Virus record (IMG/VR): IMGVR_UViG_3300023116_000434
Coordinates: 1 to 21,111 of that record
Length of the DNA: 21,111 nucleotides
Origin: a virus
Strand: one strand, 5' to 3'
Shown: positions 2,664 to 19,497 of the stretch, piece by piece
How the letters are laid out: each line of letters begins with the position of its first letter
How positions within the stretch are numbered: position 1 is the stretch's first letter
Program-made: the position numbers and the translations under genes
Notes under the pieces: model-generated
Told to the model about the DNA's origin: nothing
The model's database searches: none
What the model saw: only the letters and a program-made list of their open reading frames with translations

Positions 2664-4776
2664 TGACTGTGCTCGCTATTTGCCTAACCACTTCTCTGTC
2701 TCGTTCAGCATTCGCCTTGATCTCGGCAATGTTCACCTGGGCGCCGTAACGCGCCTCAAGCTCTGCCGCCTTCAAGATGATGTCCGCTTCATCTTTGTCT
2801 CTTCGCCGATCGTCTTCGCGCATCATCTTTTCCCGCTCTAGCTCTAGCTCGGCCTGCTTCTTCTGCATATCGACTTGCAGTGCTTGCATCTGCAGTTGGA
2901 TCAGTTGCTGATTCGGATCAGGCTTCTGCTCTTGCTGCTGGGCCTGGGCCTGCATCTGCTGCATGGCTTGTGTCGGATCGGTGAAGAATCGATTGATGTC
3001 CTTGAACCCGGCAAGCTCAAGCATTTGCGTGAGCGTCGCGTAGTAGTTGGTCGGGCTGACCATCGGGTTCTGTGGGCCGAGTTGCTGCATGATCATTTCT
3101 TGCTTCTGAGCAACCTGCTGCAACATGCTCATGCGCTCTTGATCTGATCCGCGACCGAGATGGACGTTACTCACCACGTCCATGTCTGCGTTCCAGATGT
3201 CAGGCGACATCGGCACAAACTGATTGCGCAATCGAATCATTCGCGGTCGATCTTGGTATTGAATGATCAAGCGCAGGAGACCTTTGTAGAGGCGCGTCAT
3301 GCCGTTTTCGGCGAACAGCCGGCTAATCATCTCAATACGCTGTTGCGCCGCTGCGATCGTCTGCTGCACGGCCATAAGCGTCGATGATTGAAGTTGCTCT
3401 GGCGCCAGACCATCGGCCGCTCGGCTGATGCCGGTTCGGTTCTCTCGGAGTTGGTCGAGATACTCCATCATGGGGAATGCGGCCTGGCCGACGTAAGGCA
3501 GTGTGAACGGCACGACTGCACCGGGGTTTCGCATGCGAATAATCCCGCCGGCTTCGACGTTCATCACGTCTTCGAGTGAGGCTTGCCCTTCTACAATGCC
3601 GACTCTTGGATGAGTAGACATAGCAAGAGAATCAAGACTTGCACGTAGCACTGCCGACTTGATTCTCTGAATGTCCATCGTGAGGTCCGCGATCGACATA
3701 CCAAAGAAAGCATGCGGCTCAGGGTCAGGGCAGAAATGAGCGAAGGGAATATCATCGGCTGGCTCGTTGCGCATGACTTCGTAGTTCGGACCCATGCAGC
3801 AAAGCTTGCGCAGCTCGGCAATGCCGTCTCCATCAACGTCCATGCGCATGTAGGCTTCAACATAAAGGACTCGCTTGCGAGAAGGGTCGTCGGTGTAGTC
3901 GCGATTCTCCTGCTGGCTGAGCATCCGCTCGCGAGCCTCGACGTTGTACAAGGTGAAGTCATCGTCTTCAGTTTCATAATTGGTGACCGTGTCGAAGTCG
4001 TAACCCATTTCGACAAGCTCACTGACGGTAGCGTAGCGGCGGTGCGCGATGAGATCCGCGTCCGCAAAGGAGCGAGCGTGGCGCGAAACGAGAACCTCCT
4101 CGGGAGGCACCGCCGCTACTTTGACTTTGCCGTTCACCTGGCGATGAATGACAGAAACGTCATGTAGCATTTGCGGCTGACCTGTTTGCGAATCGACCTG
4201 GTCGTTGCTCGCGCTGCTGGAAAGCATTCTGACTTCGATGTTGGGATCTGCGTTCAGTGCCGCGAGCGCCTGATCATCGAGTCGTTTTAGTTCGTATGTT
4301 TTTACTTCTTCGATCTCGTCCCAGTAATACTTCAGGAATCCACTGCCCTTGACGAGCGCGTCTTTAAACGTCTGGTACATTATCGAAACAAAAGCTTCGT
4401 CCTGATCTTGGTTCAGAACGTAGTTGACGTAGTCGGTCGCCTGCTTTGCGATCTCAACGTCCTCTGGCCCGGTTGGCGCGTACTCGACAACGTGATCGCT
4501 GCCGCAAAAGACGCGCATCAAACTCGGGAGCATGGCCTGCACGGTATCGCGCACGTCCATCGTCATCGCAGTTGAGCGGCCTTCTTGCTCGTTGCCGAAT
4601 GGTTCGCCGTTGTAATACTCGGCGGCTTCAGCCCGGCCAGGGCTTACCGTGTTGTCAATGAAATCGACAGCGTCTTCAATCGCTAGACGCGCGATCGCGT
4701 TGATCTGCTCTTCATCCATCTCCGGGTTTTCTTCGACGTACTGCTCGTCGTCATCGTAATAATCTAATTCGCTCAT
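2635..4776 (-). CDS. Portal protein, podovirus (SU10/P22-like) type
   Basis: A 713-aa protein, in the size range of podovirus portals. The portal is the dodecameric ring at the head vertex through which DNA is packaged and ejected. Sequence features: an acidic N-terminus (DYYDDDEQ), a segment typical of the family around residues 55-170 (PFGNEQEGRSTAMTMDVRDT; VKGSGFLKYYWDE), a wing/stem region with FAHFCPDPEPHAFFGMS and DLTMDIQRIKSAVLRASLD, then the tunnel-loop/crown region and a very Gln-rich helical C-terminus (about 600-690) that could form the barrel. The ATG at 4776 overlaps the stop of the ADP-ribosyltransferase-like gene by 4 bases (ATGA). The gene lies downstream of large terminase and upstream of scaffold, as expected. 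Confidence 0.9.
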   Translation of the reverse strand: MSELDYYDDDEQYVEENPEMDEEQINAIARLAIEDAVDFIDNTVSPGRAEAAEYYNGEPFGNEQEGRSTAMTMDVRDTVQAMLPSLMRVFCGSDHVVEYAPTGPEDVEIAKQATDYVNYVLNQDQDEAFVSIMYQTFKDALVKGSGFLKYYWDEIEEVKTYELKRLDDQALAALNADPNIEVRMLSSSASNDQVDSQTGQPQMLHDVSVIHRQVNGKVKVAAVPPEEVLVSRHARSFADADLIAHRRYATVSELVEMGYDFDTVTNYETEDDDFTLYNVEARERMLSQQENRDYTDDPSRKRVLYVEAYMRMDVDGDGIAELRKLCCMGPNYEVMRNEPADDIPFAHFCPDPEPHAFFGMSIADLTMDIQRIKSAVLRASLDSLAMSTHPRVGIVEGQASLEDVMNVEAGGIIRMRNPGAVVPFTLPYVGQAAFPMMEYLDQLRENRTGISRAADGLAPEQLQSSTLMAVQQTIAAAQQRIEMISRLFAENGMTRLYKGLLRLIIQYQDRPRMIRLRNQFVPMSPDIWNADMDVVSNVHLGRGSDQERMSMLQQVAQKQEMIMQQLGPQNPMVSPTNYYATLTQMLELAGFKDINRFFTDPTQAMQQMQAQAQQQEQKPDPNQQLIQLQMQALQVDMQKKQAELELEREKMMREDDRRRDKDEADIILKAAELEARYGAQVNIAEIKANAERDREVVRQIASTVNGQNRAAVS

Positions 4777-7109
4777 AATGGGCTCATGTCTAATAATGAT
4801 TCGCCAACGAGCTGCGCACGGCGCGGGAGCTGGCCAAAGAGTGATGTGATGGGCTCAATGATCGGCATCGCAGGCGCCAGCAATCCGGCAAGAAGCTGCA
4901 TTCCGTCATCGCTCAATTGCTGACCGATTTGAGTTCGAGGTTGGTAATCCATAGCTGCTAATCGAGCTTGGCTTGCTTGGTCAATCTGACTAGTCGGTCT
5001 ACTGCTGGTCAGCGATTGAATAAGTGTGTGGGGCGCATTAGCGATCGGTGCAATAATCGCAGAGCCAGCGTTTGCTGCGGCGTCGAGGATGCCGGCTCCG
5101 TAATCGGCGAGCGTGGGCTCGGCTTGTGACGGCTCTTTAATCGCGGCAGCGCCTAGCAATCCAGCACCGCCTGCTGCGGTCATTGCTGCGGGGGTTGCGG
5201 AGCCGTCTTGCTTGTTTTGCCTCAAATAGTTATCGACACCCTCAGCCCATTGCTCGTTGAACGGCTGATAGAGTTTGGGATTCATGACCAGTGAGCCGGT
5301 CTTCTGCGACTCGGTGAACGGCTGTCCTGCAACGTTGGTTGCTTTGTCTAGCTCTGCAAAAACATCTGGGTACATCACTCGAGCTGGCACACTTTGCTCG
5401 AGGCCGCCAATGTACGTGCCGGGAATGATCGTGTCATAGCTTTGATGCGGCGCATTCGGCATAGTCGGCGCGTTGGGGTCGGCAGAGAACATGCTGAACC
5501 CAGAGCTGCCGATCGGTGCGTTCGCTAACTCGGGCTGTAGAATTTCTGCGTGAGCGTCTTCTTTGACCGGAAAACCAACGTCGCGATAGCGCGACTTAGA
5601 CATTTCATCAACAAAAACAGATCGAAGCTTGCCTGCGCCCTTCTGTGGATAGTCTCCGCGACCCATTAACTGGTCCATTGCGTCGGGATGGTTAAGACCC
5701 ACCCACTCAGGTCGTAGCTTTCTTAGCTCGGCATCGAATTTCTTAATGTCACCCTTTTTGATTGGCAGCGAGCGAGCTTGCTGAAGCATTGACTCTGCCA
5801 CCGGCGTACTAAAATTTACCGCCTCTTTGCCCATCGCCGAAAATATGCCAACGGGCTCCATGCCGGTTTCATCTGCAGCCAAAGCAAAGTTGCCCTGCTT
5901 TTTTCGAGCAGCATCTGCCATCGAAGCCCAACCATACCCTTGGTCCTGGTAGCGCAGCGGGAAGTTGCTGCCGCCCTCAACCTGAACAGGCGACTCTAGA
6001 TTCACGCCGCCGATTGTCTCGATCACTTTGCCAGTGGTGCTCGTGTCGCCCGATACAGGAACGCCAACCTTGCCTACTAGGTCATCGACTGTGAGCAAGT
6101 TACGCTCACCGATATCGAGCGTTTGCGTTTTGTTCTCAACATCAGAACGGAGCTTCTCTCGAGCCCTAAAAGCTTTGCTCTCACGCATCGCTTTGTCGTA
6201 TTTGGTAAGCGCCGACTTAACCGCTGTTGGGTTCTGAGCGCTTTCGACGGTGAGCATGCCGAGACGGATTAAGTTTGCTGGCGTAGTGAGGAAGCCAGCT
6301 TCAGCCTCATTCGATTGCTGCAGCATCGCTGCGGCGACCGGGATCGTGACGCCGTACTTGCGAGCGATGTCGATTAGTCGATCATCGAAAATAACGAAGT
6401 TTTTTGATTGTTGTGGATCGGGTTTATGACGAGTGAATGCGTCACCGTATTCGATACCGGGCACACCCTCGGCTTTCATAATTTCAGCGCCCAGAGGGGA
6501 TATATGGAACCTGCGGAAATGGTCGTGATCAGATTCTGGATCGCCGAATATGTTTTTGCCTTTTGGAGACTTTTCGGCAAACCTAGCGTAAGCGCGCTTG
6601 ACGATATCTGGCTGGTCTTCCAGCGGGCTATCGAGTTTTAAAAAGTCTTTTCGATCGGCGCGAATGTTGACTTCGTATAGCCTGCCAAGTTTTGGCCCGT
6701 AGTCTGTGATCTCTTTTGCGACCGCTTTTGCGGTACTTGCTAAATCGGGGTCGTCAGCATATCGAGCCACAAGCTCTTCGGGGCTAGCGTGCAGCATGGC
6801 GTCTTCGTACATCTGCATGCGCTCGTAATCGCCCTTACCCTCTGCTGCCTTGTACTTGCGCATCAGGAAATCTTCGTAATCAAGATCGCGCTTTGTCAGT
6901 TGATCGCGATAATTCCTGGCAACATCCTCGGACTCAGCAAAGTACAAGCCTTGCCCGTACATATTGGCGCCTTCGCCGGTCAGCGGGTAATCGGTACTAA
7001 AACGATCAAAATCATGCGGAGAGCCGTGATAGGCCCGAATTCCAGGCGAGAGCAAGCCGGCATCGAGTGCTGCCTTAGTGGCTTGCTTGGCGGCTCCGAG
7101 CAACGCCAT
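4773..7109 (-). CDS. Polyvalent protein with N-terminal ADP-ribosyltransferase-like domain
   Basis: A 778-aa multidomain protein. Residues about 25-250 match the ADP-ribosyltransferase fold of the H-Y-[E] class seen in phage polyvalent proteins: YHGSPHDFDRF with His28, GEGANMYGQGLYFAES with Tyr56 and Tyr67, and a final strand KNFVIFDDRLIDI. By analogy with PARP (EYIVYD), the catalytic Glu position is Asn237 here. Residues about 320-620 (DLVGKVGVPVSGDTSTTG; FSAMGKEAVNFS; HQSYDTIIPGTYIGG) look like a recurring polyvalent-protein associated domain with no known activity. The C-terminal 150 residues are Ala/Gly-rich with hydrophobic helices, suggesting membrane interaction. The gene starts directly after the lysine-rich gene stop and overlaps portal by 4 bases, so it is made with head proteins. 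It may be packaged and ejected into the host; this is an inference. Confidence 0.78.
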   Translation of the reverse strand: MALLGAAKQATKAALDAGLLSPGIRAYHGSPHDFDRFSTDYPLTGEGANMYGQGLYFAESEDVARNYRDQLTKRDLDYEDFLMRKYKAAEGKGDYERMQMYEDAMLHASPEELVARYADDPDLASTAKAVAKEITDYGPKLGRLYEVNIRADRKDFLKLDSPLEDQPDIVKRAYARFAEKSPKGKNIFGDPESDHDHFRRFHISPLGAEIMKAEGVPGIEYGDAFTRHKPDPQQSKNFVIFDDRLIDIARKYGVTIPVAAAMLQQSNEAEAGFLTTPANLIRLGMLTVESAQNPTAVKSALTKYDKAMRESKAFRAREKLRSDVENKTQTLDIGERNLLTVDDLVGKVGVPVSGDTSTTGKVIETIGGVNLESPVQVEGGSNFPLRYQDQGYGWASMADAARKKQGNFALAADETGMEPVGIFSAMGKEAVNFSTPVAESMLQQARSLPIKKGDIKKFDAELRKLRPEWVGLNHPDAMDQLMGRGDYPQKGAGKLRSVFVDEMSKSRYRDVGFPVKEDAHAEILQPELANAPIGSSGFSMFSADPNAPTMPNAPHQSYDTIIPGTYIGGLEQSVPARVMYPDVFAELDKATNVAGQPFTESQKTGSLVMNPKLYQPFNEQWAEGVDNYLRQNKQDGSATPAAMTAAGGAGLLGAAAIKEPSQAEPTLADYGAGILDAAANAGSAIIAPIANAPHTLIQSLTSSRPTSQIDQASQARLAAMDYQPRTQIGQQLSDDGMQLLAGLLAPAMPIIEPITSLFGQLPRRAQLVGESLLDMSPL

Positions 7110-10468: not shown

Positions 10469-10903
10469 TCACTGATCGCTCACAATCGAGTCTTCAGGCT
10501 GGATCAATTCACGCAATGCGACCAGGTGTTGGTCTTGGATATTGATGCTGAGCAATGGATCTCGCCGCTCTCCCCAGTTGTCGGGATTCGCTCTCGCCGC
10601 TAGCCATTTGCGGGTATCGATCCTGAGCTTTCGGACCTGCGCATCGTGAGCATCGATTGCTCCGTCTGCGATCTCTAGCGTCTCCTCTGCTAGCGTGTCA
10701 GCCCATCGCCTTCGAGCCTCGTAATACTTCTCCTCTCGCCCCTCAACAGACCTCAGCCATTTGTAGAATACTCGCTTACTTACGCCGATCTTCTTGACCA
10801 AGGCAGTCATGGTCATGCCGCCAGCGAGCTGATCGAACAAATCCTCTCCACCCTGCTCGTCGATCTTTCTCATTGCCGCCCGCATGATTGGCCTACCGCT
10901 CAT
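10469..10903 (-). CDS. terS: Terminase small subunit, Sf6-like
   Basis: A 144-aa DNA-recognition subunit of the packaging motor. The N-terminal domain has a helix-turn-helix (MTMTALVKKIGVSKRVFYKWLRS, about residues 29-52 of the protein) for DNA binding. It is followed by the family signature ADTLAEETLEIADGA, DAQVRKLRIDTRKWLAARANPDNWGE, which I recognise from Sf6-type small terminases; that region forms the oligomer core. The ATG at 10903 is preferred because GGGAG lies 9 bases upstream; an ATG at 10909 is too close to that box. It overlaps the zinc-ribbon gene by 11 bases. It is separated from terL by about 1.7 kb, unusual because the two subunits are commonly adjacent. Confidence 0.85.
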   Translation of the reverse strand: MSGRPIMRAAMRKIDEQGGEDLFDQLAGGMTMTALVKKIGVSKRVFYKWLRSVEGREEKYYEARRRWADTLAEETLEIADGAIDAHDAQVRKLRIDTRKWLAARANPDNWGERRDPLLSINIQDQHLVALRELIQPEDSIVSDQ

Positions 10904-11210
10904 ATCCATCCACTCCCATTTCTCTCAGCACATCTGACACCGCTTCCAGGTCGTCGATGACGTAGAACTCGTCGTCGTACTCGCGGTCCCTGAGCGGCTC
11001 TGCAGCCCTTCTCAGGTCGCGCACAGTCTTTGCTGGCTTTGCTGTCGATTTAATCTGTCTCTGCTGTTCACCTTTACGTTTCACATGTAACATCTCAAGC
11101 GTGTTAAACGTGTGATCACACACTTTACAGCGCCTATCCCTTAAAACGCTCTCAGAACGTCTCTGAGTGTGCGTTACCTCTGACCTACCCTGGCATATTG
11201 GACAGTTCAT
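10893..11210 (-). CDS. Zinc-ribbon protein, NrdR N-terminus-like
   Basis: A 105-aa protein starting MNCPICQGRSEVTHTQRR. Two Cys pairs (CPIC and CKVC, residues about 3-6 and 30-33) form a zinc ribbon similar to the N-terminus of NrdR-type regulators (RRCKVCDHTFNTLEM). The remainder lacks the ATP-cone domain of NrdR and instead is charged, with an acidic C-terminus (DDEFYVIDDLEAVSDVL). The ATG at 11210 is chosen over a GTG at 11222 because GTGAGG lies in the right place. It overlaps terS by 11 bases and follows the nuclease gene by 8 bases. A transcription factor for late genes is plausible, by analogy with small phage zinc-finger activators, but unproven. Confidence 0.7.
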   Translation of the reverse strand: MNCPICQGRSEVTHTQRRSESVLRDRRCKVCDHTFNTLEMLHVKRKGEQQRQIKSTAKPAKTVRDLRRAAEPLRDREYDDEFYVIDDLEAVSDVLREMGVDGYER

Positions 11211-11218
11211 AAAACGCC

Positions 11219-11560
11219 TCACACGGCCTCTACGCGCGTCTCAGCGCACGTATTGGTCAAATACCGTCTCACTTGCTCCGCTGCGAGCCCGTTCTTCACC
11301 ATATCGGACGTATAGCGCAGAACCGCATACCCGTACTCGACGGCAAGATTGTACTTCTCGCAGTCCTTGCGAAAGCCGCTGCCGCGCGTATGCCTGCCGC
11401 CCGACCACGTCCCGCCCTCGACTTCGCACACCAGCCCGGCCTGCGGGATAACGAAATCGAATCTGAACCTCCGGCCCGGCACCAGCATCTGCTCACGCTC
11501 GTACGTTATTCCGTACGCATCGAGCTGCGCAGCGAACAGCTCCTCGAGCGCGCTAGCCAC
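11219..11560 (-). CDS. Small PD-(D/E)XK-like endonuclease (Vsr/DUF559-like)
   Basis: A 113-aa protein with the core of a restriction-like nuclease: an N-terminal helix with ALEELFAAQLDAYG, then RFRFDFVIP (Asp35), LVCEVEGGTW (Glu46 and Glu48), SGGRHTRGSGFRKDCEKYN and the strand GYAVLRYTSDMV. This layout is familiar from small phage nucleases related to Vsr and DUF559 proteins. The GTG at 11560 is selected because GGAGG precedes it by 5 bases; the frame also opens at a TTG at 11572. It overlaps the upstream 63-aa gene by 8 bases. Position before the packaging genes and after the origin region suggests DNA junction processing or trimming, an inference. The usual catalytic Lys of the ExK motif is replaced by Glu in a direct reading. 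Confidence 0.75.
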   Translation of the reverse strand: MASALEELFAAQLDAYGITYEREQMLVPGRRFRFDFVIPQAGLVCEVEGGTWSGGRHTRGSGFRKDCEKYNLAVEYGYAVLRYTSDMVKNGLAAEQVRRYLTNTCAETRVEAV

Positions 11561-15728: not shown

Positions 15729-16142
15729 ATGCAACACGCGACACAAACGAACCAACCTTCGATCGATGCATTAGCCGACCAGTGGCTGATGATGAAGCAG
15801 CTCATCGCTAGCAACCAGGCTGAGCTTCTGCGAATCGAACAGAATTTAATTCCCCTTCTCAACGCCAAAGACGACGGCAGCGCGACCACGCATACGCCGC
15901 TCGGAAAGAAGGTCGTTTTAAAGAACAAAACGAACTACAAACTCGACGGCACGAAGCTCCTCAAGGTGCGTCAGAAAATCCCCGAGGCTTTGTTGCCGCT
16001 GAAAGTGAAAGAGCTGCTCGACGAGCCCCGCTTAAAGTATCTGCGCAACAACGAGCCAGAGGTCTACTCGATCTTTGCTGACGCTTTGACTGCAACCCCC
16101 GCAAAACCCAACGTGACTGTGGAGGTGACCGATGGCGTTTGA
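15729..16142 (+). CDS. Conserved phage protein encoded before Sak4 (137 aa)
   Basis: A 137-aa protein. The N-terminal half is a long helix (SIDALADQWLMMKQLIASNQAELLRIEQNLIPLL) likely to form a coiled coil; the C-terminal half has GKKVVLKNKTNYKLDGTKL and a segment LLDEPRLKYLRNNEPEVYSIFADALT. I recall this combination from phage proteins encoded just before Sak4-type ATPases (a DUF7173-like family). The ATG at 15729 has GGAGAGAG upstream and is the first gene after the operator-controlled early promoter. Its stop lies inside the Sak4-like gene (11-base overlap). A helper of recombination is inferred from constant neighbourhood only. Confidence 0.72.
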   Translation: MQHATQTNQPSIDALADQWLMMKQLIASNQAELLRIEQNLIPLLNAKDDGSATTHTPLGKKVVLKNKTNYKLDGTKLLKVRQKIPEALLPLKVKELLDEPRLKYLRNNEPEVYSIFADALTATPAKPNVTVEVTDGV

Positions 16143-16893
16143 TCTTTCTGCAGTCAAAAAGACGAGCGGCCTTAAGCCGCCGTTTATTGTGGTGTACGGA
16201 CAAGCCGGCGTCGGCAAGACGACGCTCGGCGCGCAAGCCCCCAACCCCGTGTTCCTGCAAACCGAATCAGGCGAAGGCACTCTTGAGATCAATGCGTTCC
16301 CGCAAGTGAAAGATTTTTCGGAGATGCTTGAAGCGATCGCGAGCCTCATCGAGCACGAGCACGATTATGAAACGCTTGTTATCGATAGTCTTGATCACCT
16401 CGAGCCGATCATCTGGAAAGAAGTGTGTAAGACCCAAGGCATCGATTCGATCGAGAAGCTGGGCTACGGCAAGGGCTACGTGTTTGCTCTCGACTATTGG
16501 CGCGAGCTGATGGCAGCGCTCAACGCACTCCGGGCCAAGAAGGGCATGGCGATCATCATGATCGCGCACACCCACATCCGTAAGTTTGAGTCGCCTGACT
16601 CCGACACCTACGACCGATACGAAATAAAGCTGCATGCAAAAGCTAGCGGTCTAGTCCAAGAGAGCGTCGATGCTGTGCTCTTCGCAAAGCATGTAGTGGT
16701 AACGAAGAAAGAAGACAAGGGCTTTGGACAAACGCGCGTGCGCGGCGTGAGCACTGGCGAGCGTGTGCTGTGCGCGAACGAGAAGCCTGGCTTCGTGGCG
16801 AAGAATCGCTACGGGCTACCCGACGAGATCGACCTTTCCTGGTCGGCCTTCCAAGAAGCAATAGCAACCGCAATCAACGGAGAAACGAAATGA
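16132..16893 (+). CDS. Sak4-like RecA-fold ATPase (phage recombination)
   Basis: A 253-aa protein with the reduced RecA core of Sak4-type phage recombinases, which anneal single strands in homologous recombination. Walker A GQAGVGKT is at residues 23-30, the family motif FLQTESGEGTLEINAFP follows, and Walker B is TLVIDSLDHLE (about 82-92), then MAIIMIAHTHIRKFESPD and RYEIKLHAKASGLVQESVDAVLF. The ATG at 16132 has an excellent GGAGGTG box. It is coupled at both ends: an 11-base overlap with the upstream gene and an ATGA overlap with the DUF669 gene. Together with the next two genes it forms a complete recombination set of ATPase, ssDNA-binding type protein and exonuclease. Confidence 0.87.
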   Translation: MAFDLSAVKKTSGLKPPFIVVYGQAGVGKTTLGAQAPNPVFLQTESGEGTLEINAFPQVKDFSEMLEAIASLIEHEHDYETLVIDSLDHLEPIIWKEVCKTQGIDSIEKLGYGKGYVFALDYWRELMAALNALRAKKGMAIIMIAHTHIRKFESPDSDTYDRYEIKLHAKASGLVQESVDAVLFAKHVVVTKKEDKGFGQTRVRGVSTGERVLCANEKPGFVAKNRYGLPDEIDLSWSAFQEAIATAINGETK

Positions 16894-17390
16894 CGAGTTT
16901 TGCATTTGACGTAACGAGCGCGCCCGAGTTGGCGCCGGCACCGAGCAAGTACGCCCCAATCCCTGCGGGCGACTACAAAGCAATGATCACTGAAAGTGAG
17001 ATGAAGCCAACGCGCGCTGGCACTGGTCAGTACCTGCAGTTGGTTTGGGAGATCACAGACGGTCAGCATGCCGATCGAAAGATTTGGGATCGCTTGAACC
17101 TAGTGAATCCAAACCCCACCGCTGTCGATATTGCTAAGCGAGACCTTGCGAGCATCATGCGTGCAGTTGGCCTCGACAAGATCGATGACACCGAGCAGCT
17201 ACATTACAAAGAAGTCATGATCACCGTCACCGTTCGTAAAGGCGACAACGGCTACGAAGACAGCAACGAAATTAAAGCCTACGCCCCGGCCGGCCGCTCC
17301 GCGCCCGCCGCAGCGCCCGCAGCCCCTGCTGCTGTCGCGACCCCCGCTGCCGCGCCTGCGTCAGTGCCCGGCAAGAAGCCCTGGGAGTAG
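16890..17390 (+). CDS. DUF669 protein, SSB-like partner of Sak4
   Basis: A 166-aa protein. The start is the ATG at 16890, which overlaps the Sak4-like stop (ATGA); the frame continues further upstream but only inside the Sak4 gene. The DUF669 signature is clear: YAPIPAGDYKAMITESEMKPT, GQYLQLVWEITDGQHADRKIWDRLNLVNPNPTAVDIAKRDLASIMRAVG in pieces (about residues 20-90), then YKEVMITVTVRKGDNGYEDSNEIKAY. The last 35 residues are an Ala/Pro-rich linker ending GKKPWE, like the disordered tail of SSB proteins, though the tip is not the classical acidic DDIPF. Members of this family are often the phage substitute for SSB. Confidence 0.85.
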   Translation: MTSFAFDVTSAPELAPAPSKYAPIPAGDYKAMITESEMKPTRAGTGQYLQLVWEITDGQHADRKIWDRLNLVNPNPTAVDIAKRDLASIMRAVGLDKIDDTEQLHYKEVMITVTVRKGDNGYEDSNEIKAYAPAGRSAPAAAPAAPAAVATPAAAPASVPGKKPWE

Positions 17391-17393
17391 GTC

Positions 17394-18440
17394 ATGGTTG
17401 CCCTGCCGGAGGAGCAGCACACCACCCTCAAACTTGTGGAGCGAGCGACAGAGGAGGCGCAGGCCAGCGGTGCTGGCCGCGCCCACCTCGGCGCAAGCTT
17501 GATCGGTGATGAGTGCCAGAAAAAGCTGTGGTTCATTTTTCGTTGGGCTTCGCAAACCAAACATCCTGCTCGCCTGCTTCGATTGTTTAATCGCGGCGCC
17601 CGCGAGGAAGAGGTGTTTAACTTCTTGCTGCGCCAGGCTGGCCTCAGCGTGTGGGACGTTGACCCGGACACCAATCAGCAATGGCGCGTTGAGGCGGTCG
17701 GCGGTCACTTTGGCGGCTCACTCGATGGCGTGGTCCAGGGTTTGGTTGAGGCGCCCAAGACGCCGCATGTGAGCGAGCAGAAGACGCACAACGAGAAGAG
17801 CTTCAAGAATGTGCGCGACAAGGGCGTCAAAGAGGCGAAGCCCGAGCACTACGCGCAGATGCAAACTTATATGCACCTGATGGGCCTCGAGCGCGCGTTG
17901 TACCAGGCTGTCAACAAGAACGACGACGAGCTGTACTACGAGCGCGTGAAGTACGACAAGCAGGTTGCTGAGGGCTTGCTCGCGAAAGCCGAGCGAATCA
18001 TTACGAGCGACCTGCCGCCCGAGGGGATCAGTCACGATCCTGCGTTCTTCAAATGCAAATACTGCGACCAGAGCAGCGTCTGTCACGGCAATCGAATCCC
18101 GCAAGCCAATTGCAGAACGTGTTGTTTTGCGACGCCCGAGCTGGACGGAGACGCGCGCTGGTCATGCAGCAAGCATCAAAAAGATTTAGGGAATGAAGAC
18201 CAACGTCTCGGCTGCGAACAGCATTTGTTCATCCCTGCGCTGCTTACCAACTGGGCTGAATGCATCGACGGCGATGATGACGCGGTGCGCTATCGCAACA
18301 AATCGACCGGCGCCGAGTTTGTGAATGGCGAAGGCGGGTTCACGTCCAAAGAGATGGCGGCGGTGATCGACGTGAGCGTCCTTGGCGATCCGATCGTTGA
18401 CACGTTCAAGCAGGAATTCGGTGCGGAGGTCGTTGGTTAG
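17394..18440 (+). CDS. Fe-S PD-(D/E)XK exonuclease, RecB/Cas4-like
   Basis: A 348-aa nuclease that probably resects DNA ends for Sak4. RecB-family motifs are in order: Glu around residues 71-73 (AREEEVF), FGGSLDGV with Asp111, SEQKTHNEK with Glu128 and Lys130, and QMQTYMHL with Gln155 and Tyr159. An Fe-S cluster of the Cas4/AddB type is indicated by Cys41 (GDECQKKLWF) with Cys221, Cys224 and Cys230 (CKYCDQSSVC). Directly after it is an extra Cys cluster (Cys240, 243, 244, 258, 274 plus His261), enough for a zinc site and not part of the basic family plan as I know it. The ATG at 17394 is 3 bases past the preceding stop with GGAG upstream. The gene ends one base before the methyltransferase start. 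Confidence 0.86.
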   Translation: MVALPEEQHTTLKLVERATEEAQASGAGRAHLGASLIGDECQKKLWFIFRWASQTKHPARLLRLFNRGAREEEVFNFLLRQAGLSVWDVDPDTNQQWRVEAVGGHFGGSLDGVVQGLVEAPKTPHVSEQKTHNEKSFKNVRDKGVKEAKPEHYAQMQTYMHLMGLERALYQAVNKNDDELYYERVKYDKQVAEGLLAKAERIITSDLPPEGISHDPAFFKCKYCDQSSVCHGNRIPQANCRTCCFATPELDGDARWSCSKHQKDLGNEDQRLGCEQHLFIPALLTNWAECIDGDDDAVRYRNKSTGAEFVNGEGGFTSKEMAAVIDVSVLGDPIVDTFKQEFGAEVVG

Positions 18441-19423
18441 TGTGGATAGTGCCGAAAACCCTGCAAGCGTCATTGCCTTTTGCGCTGGATACGGTGGCAT
18501 CGAGCGAGGACTTGAACTCGCTGGCGTCAACCATCGAGTCGTCGCTTATGTGGAGATCGAAGCCTTCGCCATTGCGAACTTGGTTGCAAAGATGGAAGCG
18601 GGAGCCTTGGCTTCAGCGCCTATTTGGTCGGATCTTAAAACCTTCCCAGCACACCTGTTTCGAGATCGAGTGGATCTCGTCACTGGCGGCTACCCATGTC
18701 AGCCATTTAGCAACGCAGGCAAACGACGCGGAACAGAAGACCCTAGACACCTTTGGCCCTACCTCAAAGACCATGTGCGGACAATTAGACCTGTTCAGTG
18801 TTTCTTTGAAAACGTCGAAGGACACATCAATCGAGGACTCCAAGAAGTTGTCGGAGACTTGGAAGAACTTGGTTACGAAGCGACGTGGGGAGTATTTAGT
18901 GCGTCAGAAGTTGGCGCACCGCATCAAAGAAAACGAGTCTTCATCTTGGCCGACGCCAACGGTGGACTCTTCAACAGTTCGCAACAAGAAGTACAACCAA
19001 GGTGGAATGCCGTTACAGATGGCAGCAAAACTTTGGCCGACCCCAACAGCGAGCGACAGCGAAGGAGGACCGAGGCAACAGGACGGCAAACGGGGCCGAG
19101 CTCTAAAGGACTTGCCCAACGCGCCGTGGATGACACCGTTAGTGCAGGACTCACGGCACAGCGGAACCAATCCGTCGAAGAACGGAGCGAGGATGTTACT
19201 AGCCAACCAAGTGCATTGGCCGACGCCGACATCGAGAGACTGGAAGGACACACCTGGGATGGCAACACAAGCTGGGAGCCGAAGCAGGCTGGACCAATTA
19301 CCCAGAGCAGTTTTTGCAAACAATGGGGATCAGAAATCTGGTCAGTTGAACCCAACGTGGGTCGAGTGGTTGATGGGTCTACCTTTAGGGTGGACAGACT
19401 TAGGCTTTTGGGCAACGGAGTAG
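18440..19423 (+). CDS. Overprinted open frame inside the methyltransferase gene (up to 327 aa)
   Basis: A second frame on the same strand, shifted one base relative to the methyltransferase, stays open for 327 codons. It is not random-looking: it has three WPTPT repeats (residues 170-174, 199-203, 260-264), WKNLVTKRRGEYLVRQKLAHR before the first, SRDWKD after the third, and LNPTWVEWLMGLPLGWTDL at 303-321, only six residues before the stop. From memory these match a recurring phage protein family with unclear function. The conserved methyltransferase motifs and these motifs are encoded by the same bases: QRKRVFILADA lies over IKENESSSWPTPT, and GRVVDGSTFRVDRL over WVEWLMGLPLGWTDL. The start is uncertain: GTG 18440, or ATG at 18548 or 18773, none with a strong ribosome binding site. 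Translation could also arise by frameshifting from the main gene. It may instead be a by-product of codon bias. Confidence 0.45.
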   Translation: MWIVPKTLQASLPFALDTVASSEDLNSLASTIESSLMWRSKPSPLRTWLQRWKREPWLQRLFGRILKPSQHTCFEIEWISSLAATHVSHLATQANDAEQKTLDTFGPTSKTMCGQLDLFSVSLKTSKDTSIEDSKKLSETWKNLVTKRRGEYLVRQKLAHRIKENESSSWPTPTVDSSTVRNKKYNQGGMPLQMAAKLWPTPTASDSEGGPRQQDGKRGRALKDLPNAPWMTPLVQDSRHSGTNPSKNGARMLLANQVHWPTPTSRDWKDTPGMATQAGSRSRLDQLPRAVFANNGDQKSGQLNPTWVEWLMGLPLGWTDLGFWATE

Positions 19424-19497
19424 TGCCGCAGCAGGCAGCAAAAGCATGGATAGTTTTGAGTGAGCAGGTAAATGAGAAAGATGACGATCGAGTTTGA
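18442..19497 (+). CDS. dcm: C5-cytosine DNA methyltransferase
   Basis: A 351-aa enzyme (GTG start) that would methylate cytosine at C5, probably to protect phage DNA from host restriction. Motifs in order: I FCAGYGGIERGLELAG (13-28), II-III EIEAF and WSDLKTF, IV GGYPCQPFS with catalytic Cys86, VI FENVEG (122-127), VIII QRKRVFILA (162-170), IX-X GRVVDGSTFRVDRLRLLGNGVVPQQAAKAW at the C-terminus. Between VIII and IX the target-recognition part is polar, Gln/Arg/Ser-rich, with three LAD(A/P)(N/D) copies. The GTG at 18442 follows the exonuclease stop by one base with GGAGGT 11 bases before it; an ATG at 18382 in the same frame lies inside the exonuclease gene. Another open frame covers nearly the whole gene. 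Confidence 0.88.
   Translation: MDSAENPASVIAFCAGYGGIERGLELAGVNHRVVAYVEIEAFAIANLVAKMEAGALASAPIWSDLKTFPAHLFRDRVDLVTGGYPCQPFSNAGKRRGTEDPRHLWPYLKDHVRTIRPVQCFFENVEGHINRGLQEVVGDLEELGYEATWGVFSASEVGAPHQRKRVFILADANGGLFNSSQQEVQPRWNAVTDGSKTLADPNSERQRRRTEATGRQTGPSSKGLAQRAVDDTVSAGLTAQRNQSVEERSEDVTSQPSALADADIERLEGHTWDGNTSWEPKQAGPITQSSFCKQWGSEIWSVEPNVGRVVDGSTFRVDRLRLLGNGVVPQQAAKAWIVLSEQVNEKDDDRV
18947..19231 (+). repeat. Three dispersed direct repeats TGGCCGACSCCRAC inside the methyltransferase gene
   Basis: Copies of a 14-base element begin at 18947, 19034 and 19217 (TGGCCGACGCCAAC, TGGCCGACCCCAAC, TGGCCGACGCCGAC). They encode LADAN/LADPN/LADAD in the methyltransferase frame and WPTPT in the overlapping frame. 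They could support slippage or internal recombination, or simply reflect repeated protein motifs. Confidence 0.7.

Follow-up and report, generated by a model that had tools for sequence, protein, structure and literature searches.

The window, that is, the whole stretch of DNA that was analysed, comprises positions 1 to 21,111 (21,111 nt) of the IMG/VR virus record IMGVR_UViG_3300023116_000434. Two reading frames on its plus strand occupy almost the same DNA. The first, alpha, encodes the catalytic subunit of a C5-methyltransferase; the second, beta, lies in its +1 frame and overlaps 982 of the 1056 nt of alpha (93%). The features of the locus are given below.

18440..19423, plus strand: beta, nested +1 frame of 327 aa, the proposed DNA-recognition subunit, consisting in order of an N-terminal leader, WPTP repeats and motif IX (phrog_1008; 0 stops in relatives; synonymous-site constraint in alpha)
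18440..18444, plus strand: GTGTG, two start codons that overlap by one base (GTG of beta from 18440, GTG of alpha from 18442)
18442..19497 (stop included), plus strand: alpha, C5-methyltransferase catalytic subunit of 351 aa with a GTG start (PF00145, phrog_363, AF2 model, Foldseek)
18478..18504, plus strand: alpha motif I, FCAGYGGIE
18685..18726, plus strand: alpha motif IV with the catalytic PCQ (P85 and C86 invariant and Q87 near-invariant in 77 relatives)
18802..18825, plus strand: alpha motif VI, FFENVEGH (E123 and N124 invariant in the alignment of 77 relatives)
18830..18916, plus strand: predicted beta leader helix, residues 131–159, lying across the end of the alpha catalytic domain (AF2 helix, pLDDT 80–87 over most of it)
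18913..18948, plus strand: alpha motif VIII, GAPHQRKRVFIL
18947..19342, plus strand: putative target-recognition region in the beta frame, predicted disordered linker in the alpha frame (substitution data, AF2)
18947, 19034 and 19217, plus strand: WPTPT repeats in beta (beta residues 170, 199 and 260)
19343..19402, plus strand: beta motif IX, QLNPTWVEWLMGLPLGWTDL (near-invariant in 78 relatives; IX profile)
19402..19449, plus strand: alpha motif X, RLLGNGVVPQQAAKAW (modelled helix, pLDDT 72–97; also matches phrog_1008 positions 291–314)
19421..19423, plus strand: beta stop codon, TAG

The original prediction had described the beta frame by these ends and by its 327 codons, three WPTPT copies and the sequences RRGEYLVRQKLAHR and LNPTWVEWLMGLPLGWTDL; we found all of them in the beta frame. 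The motifs follow one another on the DNA in the order I–VIII, recognition, IX and X, and only recognition-IX is in the other frame. Motif X of alpha starts at 19402, where the motif IX segment of beta ends.

Upstream of the methyltransferase pair, at 16132–18440 on the plus strand, are genes for an AAA_24 ATPase, a DUF669 protein and a PD-(D/E)XK nuclease-like protein, which together form a recombination-type operon. Elsewhere in the window, on the minus strand, 4776–7109 encodes a 778-aa protein with an N-terminal ADP-ribosyltransferase-like stretch (ART-PolyVal, 9e-5), and 10896–11222 encodes a small protein with an NrdR-like zinc ribbon at its N-terminus (5e-5); neither match reaches the curated cut-off. 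We noticed no ribonucleotide reductase near the latter gene.

A stop-free run of this length had been predicted to be improbable by chance, and the shuffling analyses bear this out. Synonymous shuffles that preserve the alpha protein and its codon usage predict 6.5 stops in the +1 frame of the window; none is present, and not one of 20,000 such shuffles reached zero. For the relatives, we used methyltransferases retrieved with alpha alone, so that the loci were not picked by beta. All 58 distinct methyltransferases obtained in this way have a beta-like +1 frame. Homologous enzymes with frequent +1 stops were what the original prediction had named as evidence against a second gene; the 16,597 codons that we counted contain no stop, while synonymous shuffles predict 405.6. 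The counts are 0 in 9,160 codons over motifs I–VIII (283 expected) and 0 in 6,711 codons over the recognition region (103 expected), and +1 stops turn up directly past the end of beta. The +2 frame of the same 58 genes has 968 stops versus 948 expected, as a result of which openness of the +2 frame as a general property of these genes was rejected. An artefact of composition (a ‘shadow’ of alpha) was likewise rejected by the synonymous shuffles.

Not every likeness among the +1 frames is informative. A profile of the beta leader scored 95 bits in real +1 frames and 58 in synonymous shuffles of alpha, and the resemblance of the leader across relatives is thus partly the shadow of alpha. As the shuffled alpha also scores, we did not count leader profile matches on their own as evidence for beta. 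The motif IX profile, in contrast, gave 53 bits in the real frames and 0 in the shuffles.

We then compared substitutions in 31 disjoint pairs of relatives having 62–97% identity in alpha. Nearly all changes at the four-fold degenerate third positions of alpha alter the amino acid of beta. Synonymous sites of the methyltransferase frame, the comparison that had originally been proposed, are constrained within the overlap: 13.1% of the four-fold sites differ over motifs I–VIII (n = 2104) and 8.4% over the recognition region (n = 1201), compared to 27.6% past the stop of beta (n = 214; Fisher p = 1e-7 and 3e-13, respectively, against this last region). In the homologous flanking genes, available for 22 of the pairs, 23.2% of the four-fold sites differ (n = 3766). 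Over the catalytic part fewer residues differ in alpha than in beta (9% versus 18%), while over the recognition part fewer differ in beta than in alpha (26% versus 35%). Change at alpha codon positions 1–3 in the recognition part is 0.297, 0.172 and 0.201; the fastest position is alpha position 1, which is position 3 of beta. Both frames are under purifying selection. The true dual coding that had been put forward is strongly supported by the stop counts and the four-fold constraint, and we regard it as nearly certain.

Alpha had been taken for a full C5-methyltransferase with all motifs. It carries motifs I, IV (PCQ), VI (ENV), VIII and X, which define a C5-cytosine DNA methyltransferase, and matches phrog_363 (2e-60) and PF00145 (1.3e-32). 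The latter match covers residues 10–205 only, and no motif IX was found in alpha, the PF00145 match stopping at residue 205. Motifs IX–X had been placed over WVEWLMGLP, but the alpha sequence facing this stretch is VGRVVDGSTFRVDRL, which is not a motif IX; the motif IX is the beta sequence itself, and motif X of alpha comes only from 19402. In the AF2 model, for which the alignments were built without rows from the phage collection, alpha is confident over residues 1–175 and in the motif X helix. Residues 176–320 have a pLDDT of about 40 and almost no secondary structure, and are predicted to form a disordered linker of 145 residues. Foldseek aligned the alpha model to M.HhaI over 171 columns only, corresponding to the large domain. 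With motif IX in beta and residues 176–320 modelled as disordered, alpha does not have the make-up of a single-chain C5-methyltransferase; judged from sequence and model, it lacks motif IX and the small domain. In an alignment of 77 relatives, alpha has no consensus from motif VIII to the W-EP-VGRV stretch before motif X, whereas the EP-VGRV-DG-RVDRL stretch itself is nearly invariant. A single target-recognition region serving two proteins, as had been proposed, does not fit these data: here the beta frame is constrained and alpha is without consensus and modelled as disordered.

Beta matched phrog_1008 over residues 77–320 (1.3e-29). In the alignment of 78 relatives G-LNP-WVEWLMG-P-GWT-L is nearly invariant and the WPTP repeats are kept. 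PF00145 gave no match to beta itself, and the assignment of motif IX in beta comes from phrog_1008 and from the single-chain relatives described below. A search of PDB sequences with beta returned nothing meaningful, the best hits being HMG boxes (E = 0.04). The AF2 model of beta alone is poor (pLDDT 55, pTM 0.23) except for the leader helix (residues 131–159) and the motif IX segment; such a model is expected of an obligate partner, yet it proves nothing.

Split and single-chain records were reached with a consensus query that served only as a probe; the conclusions rest on the records found. In the split enzymes of actinophages (Samy, YungJamal, Renna12 and relatives), alpha stops after motif VIII and the +1 beta has recognition, IX and X. 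In the single-chain enzymes of other actinophages (MelBins, Chevrolet, Graduation and relatives), the recognition-IX-X block is in the frame of alpha, and PF00145 places motifs I–VIII ahead of the phrog_1008 block. phrog_1008 matched the beta of the split enzymes with 2e-68, 3e-59 and 2e-59, and the in-frame C-terminus of the single-chain enzymes with 5e-51, 2e-55 and 5e-30. On these profile matches, the beta module and the in-frame recognition-IX-X block of the single-chain enzymes are homologues. The small domain of C5-methyltransferases consists of a variable region and motif IX (PMC3404938). Since the module corresponds to the part of the single-chain enzymes that follows motif VIII, and since the role of the small domain is established, beta would be the DNA-recognition subunit.

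Single-chain methyltransferases also keep a leader-like +1 stretch (55 bits, versus 31 in shuffles); the beta leader is recognizable in the +1 frame over motifs IV–VIII of L179, L182, L184 and L275–L295, and the +1 ORF of MelBins keeps the first LLPTP repeats as well. This stretch may be a relic or a functional short protein.

Rather than unrelated products, the two proteins look to be subunits of a single enzyme. From sequence, structural models and analogy, we consider it very probable that this is a heterodimeric C5-cytosine DNA methyltransferase whose subunits are nested, one stretch of DNA being read in two frames. Alpha would fold the large catalytic domain from motifs I–VIII and the motif X helix, with its long disordered linker replacing the recognition domain of a single-chain enzyme. 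Beta would supply the target-recognition region and motif IX, behind a leader read across the catalytic motifs of alpha. A single ribosome-binding site would serve both proteins at the overlapping NTGTG start, and beta would bind alpha, perhaps via the leader helix. Only the pair would methylate the DNA, and thereby protect the phage from host restriction.

It is improbable that beta is a real overprinted protein with a role of its own, for example an anti-restriction or regulatory one, unrelated to methyltransferase activity. Its long leader, which has no counterpart in the single-chain enzymes, and the lack of a fold for it would suit such a role, but single-chain methyltransferases have a homologue of its C-terminal half in their recognition-IX-X part, and exactly the recognition-IX part is absent from alpha. 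Moreover, truncated contigs aside, beta was seen only where an alpha core lies over or beside it.

That alpha is active by itself, with VGRVVDGSTFRVDRL replacing motif IX and beta only modulating specificity or stability, appears highly improbable. The near-invariant EP-VGRV-DG-RVDRL stretch of alpha could be read in this way; it faces the near-invariant motif IX of beta, however, so that its conservation may be largely imposed, and the recognition region of alpha has neither a consensus nor a modelled fold. In addition, M.EcoHK31I is reported to need both proteins, according to the title of Lee et al. (1995) as cited in PMC3404938. We also see very little chance that programmed frameshifting fuses motifs I–VIII of alpha to the recognition-IX part of beta in one chain. 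The order of the motifs on the DNA is that of a single chain, and single-chain relatives exist, as a fusion would have it. Frameshifting, however, needs no open +1 frame over motifs I–VIII, yet this is where 283 expected stops are missing and where four-fold change is reduced; the start codon of beta is conserved and is usually preceded by a Shine-Dalgarno sequence, and a fusion ending at the stop of beta would be without motif X. An untranslated by-product of the composition and conserved motifs of alpha, for which the 58 bits of the leader profile in synonymous shuffles could be cited, is hardly credible in view of the stop counts, the four-fold constraint and motif IX scores far from those of the shuffles.

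The first base of the beta GTG is the last base of the TAG stop codon (18438–18440) of the upstream gene, that of the PD-(D/E)XK nuclease-like protein. Because of this overlap, translation of beta may possibly be coupled to that of the upstream gene. An NTGTGG start is present in all 72 relatives with a long beta (65 ATG, 5 GTG and 2 TTG), the alpha GTG lying two bases in. This GTG comes with the sequence, as the second residue of beta is Trp; its meaning comes from the missing other starts, alpha having no other start codon in 37 of the 72. In the window, GGAGGT at 18425–18430 precedes the start at a long spacing (DtoStart 18; 18/20 for the two starts). A Shine-Dalgarno sequence was found in 54 of the 72 relatives, with a median aligned spacing to the beta start of 14 (14/16) and a mode of 13.

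In E. coli, both frames are translated from one ribosome-binding site at AUGUG/GUGUG sites (pqiA, tamA, narQ), the two starts both being active with a 12/14 spacing in the case of AUGUG and over a wider range in the case of GUGUG (PMC9841429). The start codons of the window resemble these sites in overlapping by one base and serving two open frames. The spacings, 18/20 in the window and 14/16 as the median of relatives, compare with 12/14 for the use of both AUG and GUG in that study. Unlike the ambiguous sites of E. coli, the two frames here would encode subunits of one enzyme.

The beta search covered 80 viral contigs, the best 80 of 597 confirmed relatives, and 106 phage records. We first examined 86 loci, the 80 listed contigs plus 6 phages; in every one, beta matches over a methyltransferase, and the offset between the two frames does not vary. 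Species genomes searched with a profile yielded 80 loci, which come from many phyla of bacteria and from two archaeal MAG contigs; 79 of the 80 have the core in frame 0, the leader and IX in +1 and X in frame 0, or small variants of this arrangement. Five nested loci with the same match figures (L239, L240, L243–L245) lie at different places in one uncultured Roseovarius chromosome assembly, and are perhaps repeated prophages. The Klebsiella aerogenes plasmid LR134256 was considered as a possible EaeI system and rejected, being a prophage.

In a tree of 98 catalytic domains, a branch (99/95) has all 69 nested rows to one side of it. Split and single-chain rows group together in a clade (99/95), near the nested rows L038, L078 and L194, and midpoint rooting would make the nested form the older one within that sample. 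A wider proposal, whose chances we put at about even, is that nested two-subunit C5-methyltransferases are an old class, widespread among the phages and prophages that bacteria, and perhaps archaea, carry; that their recognition subunit is overprinted across the catalytic domain, with a conserved AUGUG-type start setting the subunit ratio from one ribosome-binding site; and that the nested form gave rise to the split and single-chain enzymes of actinophages.

Database entries of the second family had been suspected to be +1 frames of methyltransferases, and phrog_1008 and two smaller PHROGs indeed match the nested frame. The latter two, phrog_26627 and phrog_27243 (both ‘unknown function’), are probably fragments of beta. 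In annotated phages (L081–L086, L087–L097) the nested frame is usually unannotated, and most records examined show alpha only; where annotated, it is a hypothetical protein, ‘g62 internal gene’ (Lily), ‘Mte8-like’ (K1ind2) or a second ‘DNA cytosine methyltransferase’ (Likha).

If our reading is true, many phage C5-methyltransferases that databases annotate as one gene consist of two, and a recoded sequence from which only the annotated gene is cloned would yield a dead enzyme. New names can then be given to those PHROG families labelled ‘unknown function’ whose members are nested frames. The near-complete same-strand overlap is unusually clear and is conserved over many phyla, which makes it a yardstick for methods of overlap detection and useful for asking why gene overlaps persist. 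At the shared NTGTG start, ambiguous initiation would find a natural role in making two subunits of one complex, and the presence of nested, split and fused forms in one tree renders the evolution of subunit structure testable.

Among known enzymes, M.EcoHK31I (YGGCCR) has the layout closest in description to that of the window, a relationship that the original prediction had not recognized. Its beta gene is nested in the alpha gene in another frame, as in the window, where the frame is +1, and encodes a polypeptide of 176 aa. Motifs I–VIII and X are on its large subunit, where its predicted TRD has also been placed, and motif IX is on the smaller polypeptide (PMC3404938). The window likewise has I–VIII and X on alpha and IX on a second polypeptide, the likeness being one of motif layout. 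Unlike in M.EcoHK31I, beta of the window has 327 aa, its start precedes that of alpha by two bases and it spans 93% of alpha; the substitution data place the recognition region in beta, and the pair belongs to a phage and not to a restriction-modification system. M.AquI has I–VIII on one subunit and IX and X on the small one (PMC3404938). The window pair shares with it the separation of I–VIII from IX, but motif X in the frame of alpha sets it apart from the M.AquI type; the M.AquI layout corresponds instead to the split actinophage forms (Samy, YungJamal, Renna12). With M.HhaI, alpha shares the large catalytic domain (171 aligned columns), whereas M.HhaI has the TRD and motif IX in the same chain. 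In the open literature (subscription papers being outside the scope), we found no description of nested beta genes in phages, and our data suggest that the nested class is far more widespread than the two described two-polypeptide methyltransferases that we found would indicate. The enzyme is of a known kind, while the overlap of the whole gene, the shared start and the breadth of occurrence look new.
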